Assembly: GCA_017853245.1 (NCBI GenBank)
Contig: JAFMJY010000009.1
Location: 1-41,295 of the forward strand
Source of the DNA: Burkholderiales bacterium
GTDB taxonomy: Bacteria > Pseudomonadota > Gammaproteobacteria > Burkholderiales > Usitatibacteraceae
Direction: 5' to 3'
DNA length: 41,295 nt
A model generated the notes under the pieces. The model saw only the letters and a list, made by a program, of their open reading frames with translations. It did not search any database and was not told where the DNA came from. Each line of letters opens with the position of its first letter. The first letter of the stretch is position 1. Positions 10,035-16,677 of the stretch are shown here, piece after piece. The position numbers were made by a program, and so were the translations under genes.

Positions 10035-10601
10035 TCACGCGCACGCCCCGCTGGCTTGCCGGGTTAGCACGCTTGCGGTGCCGCTCGGTCCAACAAAGAC
10101 GCACTTCTGGACCTGGCCTGCAGGCTCGCTGCGCCAGACGATGAAGTAGGCGGGAGTCACTCCCACGCCGATGGCCTCCAGTGGGAGCTGGCTGTCCGCC
10201 AGGCAATCGCTGTCGGTGGGCACGCGCACACGGCAAATCTGCCAACCGGGCAAGAGCGCGGGCTCCTGTCGCAGGACCTTGGCGTCCCCGCCGGTCACGG
10301 CCACCACGACCCAACCATTCCTCCACTCGCCGGGCGACGCACAACTCGCCCCGGCGCAGACAGACACTCTCGCGTTTCGCAGAATCGCCTCGCTGCGGGC
10401 CAGCTGAATGCTCGCGGCGAGGTTGCTCGCGATGGAGGATGCGCGCGTGCTGACGGCGATGTGGTCGAAGGACGGGACGGCAATGGCTGCGAGGATCCCC
10501 AGGATGGCGATCACCACCAGGGCCTCGAGCAGCGTGAAACCCCTCCCGGCGCGGCGGGCAGGCACGAGCCTCGTCGTGAAAATGGGCTGCTCGTCGCGCA
10601 C
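10035..10601 (-). CDS. fimT: FimT/GspH-family minor pseudopilin
   Basis: Type IV pilus minor pilin-like protein, 188 residues. A 21-residue leader ends in Gly, followed by the N-methylated-type sequence FTLLEALVVIAILGILAAIAVP with Glu5 (residue 26), the substrate pattern of PilD prepilin peptidase. The C-terminal part has paired cysteines (VCAGASCASP, ICRV, DCLA, KCVF, ACA) suggesting disulfides in the periplasm. The GTG start is 6 bases after the pilY1 stop, and it is the last gene of the minor pilin cluster. In Pseudomonas, fimT/fimU open the cluster; here the GspH-type gene closes it. Some FimT proteins bind DNA for uptake; whether this one does cannot be read. It may equally be called fimU. 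Confidence 0.85.
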   Translation of the reverse strand: MRDEQPIFTTRLVPARRAGRGFTLLEALVVIAILGILAAIAVPSFDHIAVSTRASSIASNLAASIQLARSEAILRNARVSVCAGASCASPGEWRNGWVVVAVTGGDAKVLRQEPALLPGWQICRVRVPTDSDCLADSQLPLEAIGVGVTPAYFIVWRSEPAGQVQKCVFVGPSGTASVLTRQASGACA

Positions 10602-10607
10602 GGGCGG

Positions 10608-13600
10608 CTACTTCTGGATGAACCAGTACTTCCGGGCTTTGGGCCTCGACAGAATCCTGAGCATCTTCGGCGGCGACCCCTCGAGCGCCGAGGCGCCAGA
10701 CCCGCCGATCAGGAACGGCACCACCTGCCCGGAGTCGAGCTTTACCTTGCCCGCCACGGGCGAAGGCGGCAGGCCTCCCGAGACGAGCCGCTCGGACCGG
10801 GCGCCCTGTTCGTTCACGGCGCCGACGGCTTCCTGGTAGCCCACGTTGTAGACACGCGCCTCCCCGAGGGAAGTAGAGCACATTCCCGGAGCGGGATCGG
10901 TTGCGCGGTGCGTGCTGAACGTGGTCACGCCGAATACCGTAATTGCCGACGTGACGACTTGCTCACCCTGGCCATTGGCGTTGAGGCGGAGCGCCCAGCC
11001 CTTGTCACTCGGGCCCAGCGTCACCGCGCCGCTTGACGGCACGGGCTTCAGCGACTCGAGGCAGACCCAGGCGTTACCGCCGCACTTGGCCCGCTCGGCG
11101 TCGAGCCAAGTCGACGAGGTGGGGTTGTCCTTCACCATGAAAAAGTAGTTCTGGGCGGCAAACGCATTGGCAAAGGCCGTGAGCGGCTTTTCGCGGTCTC
11201 CCGAGCCCAGCAGCAGCGAGTACGTGCCATCGTCGTTGGCGACAATATCCGGCGCAAAATGAAACTTCCTGCCTGGGCCGAGGCTCGCGATGCGGGTGAT
11301 CGTCCAGTCCGCCGGCGCAGTCGAGCCAAATTTCACGTTGGCGTTGGCGCCCGACAGCCGGTAGACGTTTCCGCCGAGGTCGACGGTGTAAGCCCACAGC
11401 ACCTCCCCGGTGTCGAGATCCCTCACCACGAACACATCGGCGACGATCGACCGCGCCGCAGCCCCTCCGGGCAACGAAAACTTCTTCAGCAGGGCGCCCG
11501 TGACGGCGTCGACGAGGAAGATGGCCCGGCCCTTCGCGGTGGACGAACACGCGGTCGTCGCCGAGTCGATGTCCTCGCACGGGTCGTAGCCCCCGCCCAT
11601 GGCGATCACCGGATTCGCGTGGCCGGGCACTTCCATGATCGCCGGAGACGCCCACGTCTGCCCGAGGTCCTCGAAGCCACTGGTGCAGCCGGCGTCGCTG
11701 GCAGCCGAGCCGGCATCGAGATTGATGGGGCACCCAAGGCGCCACAGCAGGGTCGGCTGCGCCATGGTGTCATTGGCGATGCCGCTCACGTCGAAGGCAT
11801 AGATGACACGCCCACCCCGGCGGGCCGTCGCGTACAGGCGGGTGGTTGCCGCTCCACCTGCAACCGCCTTGCGCCAAGCGGTGATGGGGCCATCCAGCCC
11901 GTAGGGCTTGGGCGTCCCGAGGGTCGAGCCGTAGAACTTCACCCGATCGCTGTTCTGGGTTCGGGCGTTGTCCCGAAGCCGTCGCAGGCTGGGGTAGAAC
12001 TCCTGTGGCAGGAAGGCCCAGAGCTCGGCTCCCGCGTCCTTGCCCCCGAACGCCGTGGCCCGGTTGCCGTTCACCGCCTTGAGCAGCCCGTCATTGGCGC
12101 CGTAAAACACGACGACCCGCGGACTGGCGTCCGTTCCGAAGTTGATCGCCACCGGCCGTGAATGCACCACGTCGCCATGGAGTGAGGGCCGGGCTGCGTT
12201 GGGGTTGAGGCCACGGTCCTCGTCATCCACATCCTGGCCAGTTGTCCAATTCACCAGCGAAGTCCGTTCGGCATCGCTCGAGACACCCAGCTGCGCGTTC
12301 GTAAACAGCGCCGGCGAAAGCTCGGAGAGCGACGCGCAAGCCAGGGAGGAGCAGGCCCGGATCGATCGGGAGAAGGGATTTCGGCGCTGGACATAGGCCT
12401 GCCCGCCTTTTTCAACCCACTGCCCATCTGGAAAGTTCGACACCTCGTCACCCGCGACGGACAGGCAGTCGCCGGTGGGCTTGAAGGCAAAGTAGCTGTC
12501 GACCGCCGACGGCGTCCAGAAGCTGCGCGCGCAGTCCGTGATGAAGCCCGTGCTTGAGCTGATGGCGGGCGAGTCGGCGGCATCGACGAGCCGGAGGGAG
12601 TCCGGGTCGTTCGGGTTGGCCAGGCCCAGCTTGTACTGCTTGAGGTTCCCGGCCCAGCGGGGCTGGGCATCACCATCGGGCCGGAACATTCCGATGAACA
12701 CCTGGTTCAGGTAAGTGCCCTGGGTGTTGACGCTCACCGGCAAGCTGACCGAGGCGAACACGGAGTTGTCGGCGCGAATCTCGCTGATGATGCCGCCGAG
12801 GGCGGTGGCGAGCTCGCTGTAGTTGGTCGTGGAGAAATACTTTCCGCCGCCCACCGCCGCCATGTTGGCGAGCAATGCGGGGTAATCGGGCTTGCAGGCC
12901 AGGCGATTGATCAGCCCGACCGTGTAGGTCACGATCTTGGGACCGCTGACGCCGGCGTACATAAACCGGGACCACTCGTCAGCGTAGAAGCCGCCCCTTT
13001 CGTGCTGGCTGGCGTTGTCCGACAGCGTGGCGCTGAGCGGGGTTTCCTGGGATCCGCTGACCTGCACGCAGGCCGTCGGGTACGTACCTGTGATGCGAGA
13101 CAGGAAACCTGCCGGCGCGCCGGGAACTTCGGCCAAGGCCTGCTCCAGGGCAATCCGTGGGTTGACCATGCCCGTGTCACCGGGCGTGCCCGAGTTGTTG
13201 AACGCGTTGCCGATGAAAACGATGTAGTTGCTTGCACATCCGACGACAGGCTTGATCGCCGCGTAGTTTCGGCCGGACAGGCCGGCCTTGCCCGCGTAAT
13301 AAGCCCAGGCTTCCTGCGTCGCCGCGCCGGTTGCCTTGCCGGTAGCCTTGATGTAACCGTTGCCGGCGCCGCCGCTTGTTCGCCAGGACCTGATCCACGC
13401 CAGCATCGACGCCTTGTTGGCGGTGGTCATTGGCGTGAGCGGGACCATCAGGCAGCCGCCGTTTGCGCCGCCGCAGTTGGCGTTGTTGATGTCGCGGATG
13501 AGGGTCGCGTTGTAAGCCATCAGCCCGATGTTCATGATCGCCGAGCCATCGGCCTTGACGGGCAGCGAGCGAATCACGTTGTGCAACGCGCACTGCTCGA

Positions 13601-13829
13601 TGCCGCCCGCCGTTCCGCTCAGGCTGGGCGCCGAGGCATCTCCCTCATAAGAACAGGCAGCTGCGGACGCCTCGAAATTGGCGGCGTTGTCGAGGATGAT
13701 GAGGAGGTTGGGCAGGTCTCCCGTCCCGGGCGTTCCGCCCAGGAAGAGGTCGATGTCCTCGGCCAAAGCTGCCCGGGGGAGCGAGACGGCGGCCAGCATC
13801 AGCGCCAGCAGGAATGACTTAAATTTCAT
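10608..13829 (-). CDS. pilY1: PilY1-type pilus tip adhesin / pilus assembly protein
   Basis: Large secreted protein that caps or primes type IV pili with the minor pilins. I use the ATG at 13829 (1073 residues): it opens a clear signal peptide (MKFKSFLLALMLAAVSLP, cleavage after ALA) and has GGGAG 7 bases before it. An earlier in-frame ATG at 13853 overlaps pilX by 8 bases. The N-terminal part resembles the von Willebrand A-like region (PNLLIILDNAANF, residues 40-52). The C-terminal half is the PilC/PilY1 beta-propeller with SRPVAINFG, VVVFYGANDGLLKAVN, ELWAFLPQEFYP, GRVIYAFDVSG and MGGGYDPCEDID. Two expected metal sites look degenerate: the A-domain has D47-N-A-A-N instead of DxSxS, and the propeller loop at residues 803-811 is RDLDTGEVL instead of a DxDxDxxxD-type calcium loop. 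Confidence 0.93.
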   Translation of the reverse strand: MKFKSFLLALMLAAVSLPRAALAEDIDLFLGGTPGTGDLPNLLIILDNAANFEASAAACSYEGDASAPSLSGTAGGIEQCALHNVIRSLPVKADGSAIMNIGLMAYNATLIRDINNANCGGANGGCLMVPLTPMTTANKASMLAWIRSWRTSGGAGNGYIKATGKATGAATQEAWAYYAGKAGLSGRNYAAIKPVVGCASNYIVFIGNAFNNSGTPGDTGMVNPRIALEQALAEVPGAPAGFLSRITGTYPTACVQVSGSQETPLSATLSDNASQHERGGFYADEWSRFMYAGVSGPKIVTYTVGLINRLACKPDYPALLANMAAVGGGKYFSTTNYSELATALGGIISEIRADNSVFASVSLPVSVNTQGTYLNQVFIGMFRPDGDAQPRWAGNLKQYKLGLANPNDPDSLRLVDAADSPAISSSTGFITDCARSFWTPSAVDSYFAFKPTGDCLSVAGDEVSNFPDGQWVEKGGQAYVQRRNPFSRSIRACSSLACASLSELSPALFTNAQLGVSSDAERTSLVNWTTGQDVDDEDRGLNPNAARPSLHGDVVHSRPVAINFGTDASPRVVVFYGANDGLLKAVNGNRATAFGGKDAGAELWAFLPQEFYPSLRRLRDNARTQNSDRVKFYGSTLGTPKPYGLDGPITAWRKAVAGGAATTRLYATARRGGRVIYAFDVSGIANDTMAQPTLLWRLGCPINLDAGSAASDAGCTSGFEDLGQTWASPAIMEVPGHANPVIAMGGGYDPCEDIDSATTACSSTAKGRAIFLVDAVTGALLKKFSLPGGAAARSIVADVFVVRDLDTGEVLWAYTVDLGGNVYRLSGANANVKFGSTAPADWTITRIASLGPGRKFHFAPDIVANDDGTYSLLLGSGDREKPLTAFANAFAAQNYFFMVKDNPTSSTWLDAERAKCGGNAWVCLESLKPVPSSGAVTLGPSDKGWALRLNANGQGEQVVTSAITVFGVTTFSTHRATDPAPGMCSTSLGEARVYNVGYQEAVGAVNEQGARSERLVSGGLPPSPVAGKVKLDSGQVVPFLIGGSGASALEGSPPKMLRILSRPKARKYWFIQK

Positions 13830-13845
13830 GGGTGGGCTCCCAGGG

Positions 13846-14352
13846 TCAGGCATCGCAGGCGGCTTTCTTCACCGCGTCACGCAGGTGGATGAGGATGCCG
13901 GAGTACATCACCAGGGAAGCCTCGGTTCGGGAGTCCGTCACGGCGGCGCGGACGTCCCACGTGGTGTCCCAGGTTCCCTCGTCCGACATGTCCTTGGGCA
14001 GGGAGAGGCTGCTTTTGGGCGCTGCCACGTCCAGCTTGGCGCTCACGCACTCCATGCTCACTGCAACCGAGTAGTCGCTGGACCCGTCCCGGTCGATGTC
14101 GATGGCGTGGGTGGTCTGGCCCTTGAGCGCGCTGGCGGCGACCCCGGATTGCGTCAGGCCGATCCGCTCCTCCACTGCCGCATTGGCAGCGGCGATCGCC
14201 TGCTCGCGAAACTGCATGTTGCCGACAACCCGCAGGTTGGTCGTACTGAGCGTGAAAGCCGTAATCAGCATCAGGGTGATCAGCACGAGCATCATCAGGC
14301 CCACGAACAGCGTGGCGCCTGACTGACGGCCCAGCGCACCTCGGCGCTTCAC
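13846..14352 (-). CDS. pilX: PilX-type minor pilin
   Basis: 168 residues from a GTG at 14352 that overlaps the pilW stop (GTGA). The short leader ends RQSG and is followed by ATLFVGLMMLVLITLMLITAF, a pilin-like hydrophobic helix without the Glu at position 5, as is usual for PilX/GspK-type minor pilins placed at the tip complex. The rest is a soluble domain with two cysteines (one in SMECVS, one near the C-terminus). Assignment rests on length, helix and position between pilW and pilY1. A longer in-frame extension upstream is inside pilW and is not family-like. Confidence 0.88.
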   Translation of the reverse strand: MKRRGALGRQSGATLFVGLMMLVLITLMLITAFTLSTTNLRVVGNMQFREQAIAAANAAVEERIGLTQSGVAASALKGQTTHAIDIDRDGSSDYSVAVSMECVSAKLDVAAPKSSLSLPKDMSDEGTWDTTWDVRAAVTDSRTEASLVMYSGILIHLRDAVKKAACDA

Positions 14353-15533
14353 GATGGCGTCTCCCGACGGCCCGCAACGTTGACCAGGCGGACGGTTGCC
14401 GAAAAGACATGCCGCTTGTACTCGGGGTCCAGCGTCCGGCTGGCACAGGCGACATCGACGCTCGCCGTGCTGCACACGGACGGCGCGCTCCCCAGCTGGT
14501 AGGTCTTCAGGTCGCGGTGGCCTGGCGTTCGCTCGCGGGCCCGCGCGAGCACGTAGATGCGGGCGACCGTAGCGTTCACGAGTTGGCCCGGGGCACAACC
14601 TGCCCCGCAACGGGCCCATTCGCCGTCGGGGACGCCATCGCCCCGGTTCACGGCGATGGTCTTGCCATCGGGGTCCTGCCACAGCACGGCGGCCGAGTAG
14701 TCCACTGGCGCGCCGGTTTCACTGAGCGAGTCGATTCCCAGCTCGACGCGAATCGCCTCCACGCCCTCGACCAGGGCGTCCGGCGCTTGGTTACCCAGCA
14801 CGCCGCCCTTCAAGCCGAAGGGGGAACGCACCAGTGTCGGGACGCCATCCGCGGGCGACACCGAGTAGCTGCGGACGTAGTACACGTTCGACACGAGCCT
14901 GCGCTTCTCCGCAACCGTCGCACAGTCCTTGGCCCGCAAGGTGAGCGCGCCCGTCGCCAGCGTGTAGGCGGCAGGATCCGAAGCGCATCGCGAAGCCTGA
15001 AAGTACATCTCGCCAGCCGCGTCGGCGGCACAGTTGCCCTCGCCGGGCTTGCAGGTTTCCGCATGCCTCACCACCAGCACGTCGGAATCCGCTCGGGCAT
15101 TCAGCACAGGCCCAGCGGCCGGGCCGCACTCGGCCGGCACGGTCCCGTAAGCCTGCACCGCGATCCCAACCAGGTTTTTTTGCTGTCCCGCCCATGTCGT
15201 TTCGTCGTAGGTGAGGCACGCCGGGAGCACGGCGTCCGGCGTCTGTGCGGGGTCGGGAGCCGACTTGAGGGTGAGGTCGTCGAATGCGGGCACATGTGTT
15301 CCCCAGAAGCCCGCGTGGATGAGGTCGTTTTCCAGCACCTGGATCGCGAAGCGCCCGCTCTCGATCATCGAGCTCGCCCGAGCCATCTCGCGGCTGGTTC
15401 GGCTCGTGTCGACGAAGAGCGCGACAAGAGACGAGAGCAAAACGAGGCCGAGCGCGATGGAGACCATGAGCTCCACCAGGCTGAAGCCGTGCGAGCGGGT
15501 CCGCGCGAGCGCGTCGGTATCGCCTGTTCTCAC
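14349..15533 (-). CDS. pilW: PilW-type minor pilin
   Basis: 394 residues from a GTG at 15533, which overlaps the pilV stop by 4 bases. The prepilin leader is 16 residues (ending SHG), followed by FSLVELMVSIALGLVLLSSLVALF with Glu5 at residue 21. The early mature part contains the PilW pattern SSMIESGRFAIQVLENDLIHAGFWG. The C-terminal half is large and has many cysteines, expected to form disulfides in the periplasm. It acts with PilV, PilX and PilY1 in the priming/tip complex. The upstream open frame extending to 15809 lies inside pilV and is ignored. Confidence 0.92.
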   Translation of the reverse strand: MRTGDTDALARTRSHGFSLVELMVSIALGLVLLSSLVALFVDTSRTSREMARASSMIESGRFAIQVLENDLIHAGFWGTHVPAFDDLTLKSAPDPAQTPDAVLPACLTYDETTWAGQQKNLVGIAVQAYGTVPAECGPAAGPVLNARADSDVLVVRHAETCKPGEGNCAADAAGEMYFQASRCASDPAAYTLATGALTLRAKDCATVAEKRRLVSNVYYVRSYSVSPADGVPTLVRSPFGLKGGVLGNQAPDALVEGVEAIRVELGIDSLSETGAPVDYSAAVLWQDPDGKTIAVNRGDGVPDGEWARCGAGCAPGQLVNATVARIYVLARARERTPGHRDLKTYQLGSAPSVCSTASVDVACASRTLDPEYKRHVFSATVRLVNVAGRRETPS

Positions 15534-16117
15534 CGCAACCCCGCTATCCGCACGATGGTGGTCACGAACCGGCGGCAGCGATCCCCGGTGCACTCCGAGC
15601 CGGCGCCGTCGTAGAGCCCGGCGGCACACGTTACGTTGGCCGGTGGTGGCGTGACGGGCCGCATCCCTTGCCAGGTGACGGTGATCAGGTACTCGCGGTT
15701 CGCTGCCCCGGCGGCCGACAGCCGCTCGATGCACCCGCGACCGCCAAGCATGGCGCCCACCCGACTGTTGCCCAGCGCCTCGCTGGCGCCTTGCAGTCCC
15801 TCGCACCACTCACGGGCGTCCCGCTCATAGCGCTCGGCTCCGGCGCCGCAGACGGCGCCGGCACCCGTTGGCCAGGCGACCTCGGTCACATAAGACTCGG
15901 ACTGCGGGCGATTGGTGGCCAGGCGGCTCGCCATGTCCTTCAGCAGCAGCATCGCCTGCGAGCGCTGGTAGGCCTCGATTTCCGACGTCTGCAGCCGCGC
16001 CTGAAGCGCCACCAGTGCGAGTAAGCCGAGCAACAAGATGACGATGGTGACGAGAACCTCGATCATCGTGACGCCCGACTGGCGCCCGGGGCCCCGATTC
16101 ACTGCGGGCGCTACCAC
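15530..16117 (-). CDS. pilV: PilV-type minor pilin
   Basis: 195 residues starting at a GTG (16117) that overlaps the pilE stop (GTGGTAG); another GTG five codons later is also possible. The leader ends RQSG, then VTMIEVLVTIVILLLGLLALVALQARLQ, with Glu5 at residue 20. The following AYQRSQAMLLLKDMASRLATNR is characteristic of PilV. Several cysteines are present in the globular part. It forms part of the type IV pilus minor pilin complex with PilW and PilX. Confidence 0.92.
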   Translation of the reverse strand: MVAPAVNRGPGRQSGVTMIEVLVTIVILLLGLLALVALQARLQTSEIEAYQRSQAMLLLKDMASRLATNRPQSESYVTEVAWPTGAGAVCGAGAERYERDAREWCEGLQGASEALGNSRVGAMLGGRGCIERLSAAGAANREYLITVTWQGMRPVTPPPANVTCAAGLYDGAGSECTGDRCRRFVTTIVRIAGLR

Positions 16118-16500
16118 TTGTCCGCCGGGGTTCGGTTGCCGGCACTGTCGAGCTTGAGGTTGCCCAGCCGCGCGGCATGGGGCCCGACGGCGGTGAACTC
16201 AATCTCGAAGCGCGGCGGCGGGCCGTCGGACACGGCGATGAGGTAGGTGTAGTCACGGCTCACGTCCGACGGCAGCGCGTACCCGGACGCCTCCAGCGAG
16301 TCCTTGCTGGCGAACGTGCGGTTGGCGAGAAAGAACTGCTGCTGCCGGTTCGCGATGTCCATCATCGCCGCCTGGGCGGCGGACCGCCTGGCGCGCGCCA
16401 CTTGGTCGACGTAACTCGGGTAGGCGATCGTCGCCAGCAGGGCCACGACCACCACCACGATCATCAGCTCGATCAGCGTGAAGCCGCGCGAGCGCGACAT
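16111..16500 (-). CDS. pilE: PilE-type minor pilin
   Basis: 129 residues. The ATG at 16500 is chosen because GGGAGGGGG lies just upstream and the leader (MSRSRG) then has normal length. The mature N-terminus FTLIELMIVVVVVALLATIAYPSY has Glu5 (residue 11). The C-terminus ends with the PilE/ComP-like pattern GNLKLDSAGNR...W. No cysteine is present, so the usual D-region disulfide is absent, in contrast with the cysteine-rich pilV and pilW next door. It is probably a minor pilin, not the main fibre subunit, because it is first in the minor pilin operon. It could also be labelled ComP-like. Confidence 0.87.
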   Translation of the reverse strand: MSRSRGFTLIELMIVVVVVALLATIAYPSYVDQVARARRSAAQAAMMDIANRQQQFFLANRTFASKDSLEASGYALPSDVSRDYTYLIAVSDGPPPRFEIEFTAVGPHAARLGNLKLDSAGNRTPADKW

Positions 16501-16677
16501 CGCACCCCCTCCCTTGGCCACCTCGCCAGAACCGCCGATTCTAGGGGCGGATCCCCGGCGCCACCGGGGGCCGCCGGATAGCCGCCCCCTCAGCCCCGAC
16601 AGGCGGGGGTGCCGCGTCCCGCGGCAAGGGGGCTGCCCGGCGGAACGGCAACTCGGGAGGGCTCGGCCGGGGAGGGC
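16501..16677. other. GC-rich spacer between pilE and tRNA-Thr, with two hairpins
   Basis: No gene seen. Two perfect inverted repeats stand out: CCCCGG-CGCCA-CCGGGG (16553-16569) and GCCGCG-TCC-CGCGGC (16611-16625). On the minus strand TAGAAT (16538-16543) could be a -10 for the pil cluster, but no -35 fits at 16-18 bases and no sigma-54 GG/GC pair was found. Neither hairpin has a T-run. Confidence 0.4.

Follow-up and report, generated by a model that had tools for sequence, protein, structure and literature searches.

The nine-residue calcium loop between two strands of the PilY1 propeller is, with a probability of about three in four, replaced by a metal-free beta-turn throughout one branch of a divergent subfamily of this protein, in what would still be a working PilY1. 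The turn state occurs in many beta- and gammaproteobacteria. The member examined here comes from the window, a 41,295-nucleotide stretch of a Burkholderiales genome (GCA_017853245.1, contig JAFMJY010000009.1), which encodes an intact type IVa pilus PilY1 of the divergent subfamily. This protein no longer has the classic propeller calcium site, the ligands of which are absent. A first-pass annotation had described the calcium loop at 11397..11423 as degenerate, and this is borne out by the codons as well as by alignment with 3HX6, the C-terminal domain of P. aeruginosa PilY1. The observation is correct and the interpretation attached to it partly so, the protein being a branch-wide case of a known motif absence.

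The turn, the gene and the predicted fold

On the minus strand, the codons from 11421-11423 down to 11397-11399 read R D L D T G E V L, and are followed by the conserved strand W A Y T V D L G G N (11367..11396), which matches YAYAGDLQGN of 3HX6. A PDB sequence search with the window protein alone gave no PilY1 match, and a mixed profile (18 sequences, the window protein included) was required for the alignment of the 3HX6 chain to the window protein: NGLSSPRLADNNSDGVADYAYAGDLQGNLWRFD. This alignment with a PilY1 of known structure, proposed as a check in the first-pass annotation, places RDLDTGEVL at the 3HX6 calcium loop; the equivalent P. aeruginosa loop is consequently D-N-N-S-D-G-V-A-D. 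When the Tyr that follows the loop is taken as anchor, loop positions 1, 3, 5 and 9 of the window protein hold R, L, T and L, i.e. none of the four ligands is retained. D812 and D814 sit one residue off the ligand register, and the earlier estimate of at best two of four acidic ligands was for this reason generous yet fair, although the count in register is zero. The turn corresponds to residues 811-819 counted from the ATG at 13853; the residue numbers 803-811 given previously denote the same codons, and are eight lower because they were counted from the second Met (M9, 13829). The stretch from D806 to D825 spans 20 residues, the canonical length also seen in all 40 loop-intact relatives compared, and the site was thus removed by substitution, not by shortening, in the window protein. 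In the branch to which this protein belongs, the loop stretch is one residue shorter in 33 of 56 rows.

None of the patterns tried revealed a canonical loop elsewhere in the protein, with zero matches across 1081 residues for Dx[DN]xDGxxD, Dx[DN]x[DNS]xxx[DE], [DN]x[DN]x[DNSG]xxx[DE], RGD and DxSxS. Likewise, the second site DxDxNxxxD, located upstream of an RGD, has no match in the window protein, from which the RGD is also absent. A PQQ-repeat-like turn, for which we take DxxTGxxxW to be the motif, was considered for the same position and rejected; Pfam searches at E up to 10 with two short window pieces returned PF05567 and two weak matches, and no PQQ model.

The pilY1 gene (10608..13853, minus strand) encodes 1081 amino acids from the ATG at 13853, or 1073 from the likelier ATG at 13829. 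Its product combines a putative vWA-like fold in the N-terminal region with a C-terminal beta-propeller, and exceeds the curated cut-off of PF05567 (T4P_PilY1 propeller; 47.6 bits, cut-off 28.1); a search of NCBIfam gave no match. The true start is probably the second Met, since M9 is common to the relatives (conserved at no less than 90% in one 72-row alignment, and Met in 43 of the 56 rows of a second) and GGGAG lies directly upstream of 13829.

An AlphaFold2 model of the protein (72 rows; mean pLDDT 83.8, pTM 0.83) predicts a tight hairpin at the place of the loop, between strands 808-811 and 818-824, with a mean pLDDT of 90 for residues 811-820. The best PDB match of the model, as determined by Foldseek, is 3HX6, and VIA-align gives Z 25.6 and an rmsd of 3.0 over 383 residues at 20% identity. 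A 3HX6-like propeller is hence present in the predicted structure. The two proteins share the propeller fold and the strand following the loop; however, DNNSDGVAD of 3HX6 corresponds to RDLDTGEVL in the window protein, which retains none of the ligands in register and contains neither an RGD nor a DxDxNxxxD site. Model residues 46-363 align to chains such as 3ibs (Z 18), which we take to be vWA folds, and Pfam detects no vWA domain.

The gene lies in a minor-pilin setting, all on the minus strand. Directly downstream is a FimT/GspH-type minor pilin (10035..10601; PF12019 44.9 bits, PF07963 33.3 bits). On the other, upstream side, the ORF of a PilX-like minor pilin (13846..14682; PF14341 24.6 bits, just below the cut-off of 25.5) overlaps the pilY1 ORF by 8 bp and is followed by a PilW minor pilin (14349..15809; PF16074 49.3 bits, and PF07963), the coordinates of both being ORF bounds with the real start probably inside. 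Further along are a PilV-like minor pilin, named by position (15530..16117; PF07963 26.3 bits, and PF22150 22.8 bits, below the cut-off of 27), and a ComP/PilE-type minor pilin (16111..16521; PF16732 49.9 bits, and PF07963). The FimT, PilW and ComP types are thus recognized above cut-off, the PilX-like one just below, together with one more N-methyl pilin. Within the window genus (G000-G007), the occurrence of PilY1 is patchy: five of seven sister genomes carry an ordinary YGGD-type protein, and none was detected in one. The window and G001 copies both belong to the divergent subfamily but to separate branches, and L004 keeps the loop. Exchange of the minor-pilin/PilY1 cassette would explain this patchiness.

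Distribution of the loop-less turn

A loop loss private to the window protein was initially suggested by the first six divergent relatives, in each of which the loop is still acidic, but was overturned by a wider sample. Relatives were gathered from named genomes (80 loci retained out of 230 relatives) and from 399 genomes of the order. Following removal of L112, L134, L143, L164 and L167 as well as of identical propellers, which reduced 116 rows to 102, a quick tree with SH-aLRT support and no bootstrap was built from 114 propellers, 102 of the subfamily and 12 ordinary, over 537 columns from which the loop columns were excluded. The loop was scored as kept when at least three of the four ligands, the last acid among them, were present; by this rule 51 of the 114 propellers keep it and 63 do not. 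The loop state needs 8 changes on the tree, as compared to a mean of 37.6 over 500 label shuffles, none of which needed so few; such counts do not separate loss from gain. The tree shows strong clustering of the loop state, from which no cause follows.

The window protein falls in a branch of 56 rows (SH-aLRT 99), 54 of which are loop-less and two borderline, the latter being L081 (SDDDDGYLE) and L106 (VPDANGYLE), which barely satisfy the motif rule. L106 and L124, both within the branch, have an odd residue composition. The loop is kept in 43 of the 46 remaining subfamily rows, the exceptions being L118, L129 and L156, and a single loss within the branch, rather than a gain outside it, would best describe its history. 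The Ralstonia-labelled L129, in which the loop is degraded to DRAGSGYIQ, stands in a loop-intact branch and would seem to have lost the site recently. Going by record titles, the loop-less branch has members from Pseudomonas, Azotobacter, Variovorax, Ramlibacter, Thiobacillus, Nitrosospira, Methylotenera and other genera.

For comparisons between the two states, 40 of the 43 loop-intact rows were used (L006, L007 and L012 were omitted as far relatives), and the 56 rows counted as lost include the borderline L081 and L106. The turn of the branch follows roughly the consensus V-V-P/T-D/N-S-x-(T)-G-L-A-x-Y-A-Y, with the D/N retained in 50 of 56 rows and the G in 53. Y822, D825, G828, N829 and R832 are invariant in all 56. 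Position 834, conversely, is D or N in every one of the 40 loop-intact rows, whereas 21% of the branch has an acid or Asn there, and some D-x-D/N-x-D/N-x3-D/E can be found anywhere in the protein in 39 of 40 loop-intact rows versus 6 of 56 branch rows.

The loop is also frequently missing from ordinary PilY1s. A non-random sample of 123 ordinary loci from the order, some sharing a genome, was assembled from 13 of the window's family and 110 taken by score order; four were dropped for want of an anchor match. Among the 119 readable loops 52 pass the motif and 67 fail, 48 of the latter being of a YGGD-like type; six of the 52 intact calls (L058, L220, L223, L235, L281 and L286) belong to an SGLA/YGGD-like class and may be in register by chance. 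None of the 13 ordinary copies from the window's family passes. The fraction of 52/119 is lower than the loop frequency of approximately 75% published for PF05567 as a whole in a 2011 study (PMC3123361, of which excerpts were available), although samples and rules differ; the same excerpts discuss members without the Dx[DN]xDG motif. A frequent betaproteobacterial type (L016-L028 and many of L213-L285) has a DN...(D/N)NT turn before YGGDLxGN, a candidate alternative calcium-site geometry. These ordinary proteins occur in the same order, family and genus as the window and likewise fail the motif; however, they differ in turn sequence and score higher with Pfam (103-161 bits, against about 50). 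Taken as special to the window protein, the loss does not stand up, as it is shared by 54 of 56 branch rows and by 67 of 119 sampled ordinary PilY1s. Absence of the calcium loop is common and already described in the PilY1 family, and the window case is in this respect largely ordinary.

The first-pass annotation had furthermore coupled the loop loss to a loss of the vWA MIDAS. The DxSxS motif is indeed absent, its place (13677..13691, minus strand; residues 55-59) being occupied by DNAAN. However, the change is subfamily-wide: DNTAN, the commonest subfamily form, is found in 36 of 56 branch rows, and with 9 of 40 it leads among the loop-intact rows too. As DN-x-x-N is thus the most frequent state in loop-intact relatives as well, the proposed link between loop and MIDAS falls, and their co-loss is rejected.

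Other metal sites, disulfides and further copies

The most serious competitor of the metal-free reading, which we nevertheless consider rather doubtful, is that calcium is still needed and bound at another place, i.e. at a Cys-bounded acidic loop, at a linker around residues 541-547 or weakly at D812/D814, both of which are still near the turn. The acidic loop DPCEDIDSATTACSSTA (11535..11585, minus strand; residues 757-773) is a candidate metal site bounded by Cys 759 and 769, with the subfamily pattern GGGYDxCEDxD...C, in which D763 is often acidic too. All 56 branch rows have D757 and D761, and 52 of them E760, while linker position 545 (E545 in the window protein) is acidic in 93% of the loop-less rows. 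Metal binding by the conserved acids of loop 757-769 or of the linker could occur, and P. aeruginosa PilY1 is described, in the part of PMC3248442 available, as having a second calcium site at 600-608. However, the same acids are equally conserved beside an intact classic loop (38, 37 and 40 of 40 rows for D757, E760 and D761; 95% for position 545), and are consequently no replacement for the lost site. None of them fits the calcium patterns tried, and their conservation may be purely structural. A metal-independent PilY1, as suggested in the first-pass annotation, is at this stage a hypothesis.

An exchange of calcium for disulfides, with extra putative disulfides stabilizing the propeller in place of the ion, is attractive since P. 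aeruginosa PilY1 gains mechanical stability from calcium, according to the excerpt of PMC11891296. The raw contrast is strong: the Cys positions 441/463, 708/723, 759/769 and 924/931 are present in 91-100% of the branch rows versus 0-47% of the 40 loop-intact rows, and the aligned C-terminal part, which 441/463 precede, contains a median of 9 Cys in loop-less and 5 in loop-intact proteins. However, no support remained once descent was controlled. Over seven independent pairs, a number at which significance is unreachable, a count of at least seven Cys followed loop loss in 1.5, opposed it in 0.1 and made no difference in 5.4 (means). Disulfide compensation was accordingly rejected as an account of the raw contrast, and we regard it as unlikely. 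The same low standing applies to the broader proposal that a large branch, often with this protein as the sole PilY1 detected, has dispensed with the calcium switch, so that extension and retraction would be ungated and the force-bearing propeller would be held by disulfides.

Less credible still is loss of the loop through gene decay, or because another PilY1 handles the calcium-dependent work. Further PilY1s do exist in some branch genomes; 11 of the 23 ordinary paralogue loci read keep the canonical loop, and the genome of L081 holds a second subfamily copy, L204, with the intact loop DSNGDGLSD. However, the remaining 12 paralogues are likewise without a canonical loop, the window gene is intact with an open frame of 1081 codons, and the strand next to the turn does not vary within the branch. 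Moreover, the window genome has a single PF05567 match, and the subfamily profile also finds this gene only. No PF05567 match besides the loop-less copy was found in 24 of 50 branch genomes (Pfam, E ≤ 0.001), the copy itself being the single match in 22 and missed by the model in two; in two further branch genomes Pfam misses the known copy, and the single match is an ordinary PilY1. Since at least four of the 50 genomes (G419, G423, G440 and G463) contain a known loop-less copy that escaped this search, other divergent copies may be missed too, and this limited sensitivity weakens the single-copy argument. In six Pseudomonas-labelled genomes with a loop-less copy (L183 and L185-L189), the ordinary PilY1 is also without a canonical loop, its turn being e.g. 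YATDSSGNIYVKDVYAGD; with both copies affected, these cells may be entirely devoid of the classic PilY1 calcium site. Finally, a normal loop masked by an assembly error or a local frameshift, imaginable in a 202-contig assembly (98.7% complete), can be dismissed, as neither of the two other frames hides a motif at the loop place and 53 further branch rows are without the loop.

Loop-less PilY1 and control of the pilus

Replacement of the calcium loop by a metal-free turn in a functional protein remains the reading that we favour. PilT-family genes were detected above cut-off in all 25 genomes considered, i.e. the window genome, where two such genes adjoin each other, and the 24 branch genomes in which no other PilY1 was matched. 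This combination suggests that the loop-less PilY1 probably serves a retractile pilus. The protein would act there as pilus tip and priming factor, with no calcium switching of extension and retraction at this site.

Published descriptions, each available in part, provide several parallels in motif absence. The text seen of PMC3283707 reports no evident conservation of the calcium site in Variovorax paradoxus Varpa_5900, insertion mutants of which have swarming and biofilm phenotypes. Motif-less members from Xanthomonas/Stenotrophomonas and Herminiimonas are mentioned in PMC3123361, and most proteins of the myxobacterial clades 1.4a, 1.4c and 1.7 are without all three predicted motifs according to the excerpt of PMC13190605. 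All of these share with the window protein the lack of the usual calcium motif. In Myxococcus xanthus, the C-terminal motif is named, in the excerpt of PMC8833165, only for PilY1.1 and PilY1.2, and the N-terminal domain of PilY1.3 contains two calcium motifs, in contrast to the window protein, which is without any pattern tried. A partial survey of the literature on PilY1 without calcium sites yielded no description of the present loop-less branch. Calcium dependence seems to vary even among proteins that have the site: in P. aeruginosa pili were abolished when it was mutated, while pilus formation in Kingella proceeds without the need for calcium binding (both from the excerpt of PMC13190605).

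A leading model for control of extension and retraction from the pilus tip is the calcium switch described for PilY1 of P. aeruginosa. As 67 of 119 sampled ordinary PilY1s are without the site, and as it is likewise missing in PilT-encoding genomes with no other PilY1 detected, this switch should not be taken for granted in all type IVa pili. The loop-less branch includes cultured members, which permit a direct test.
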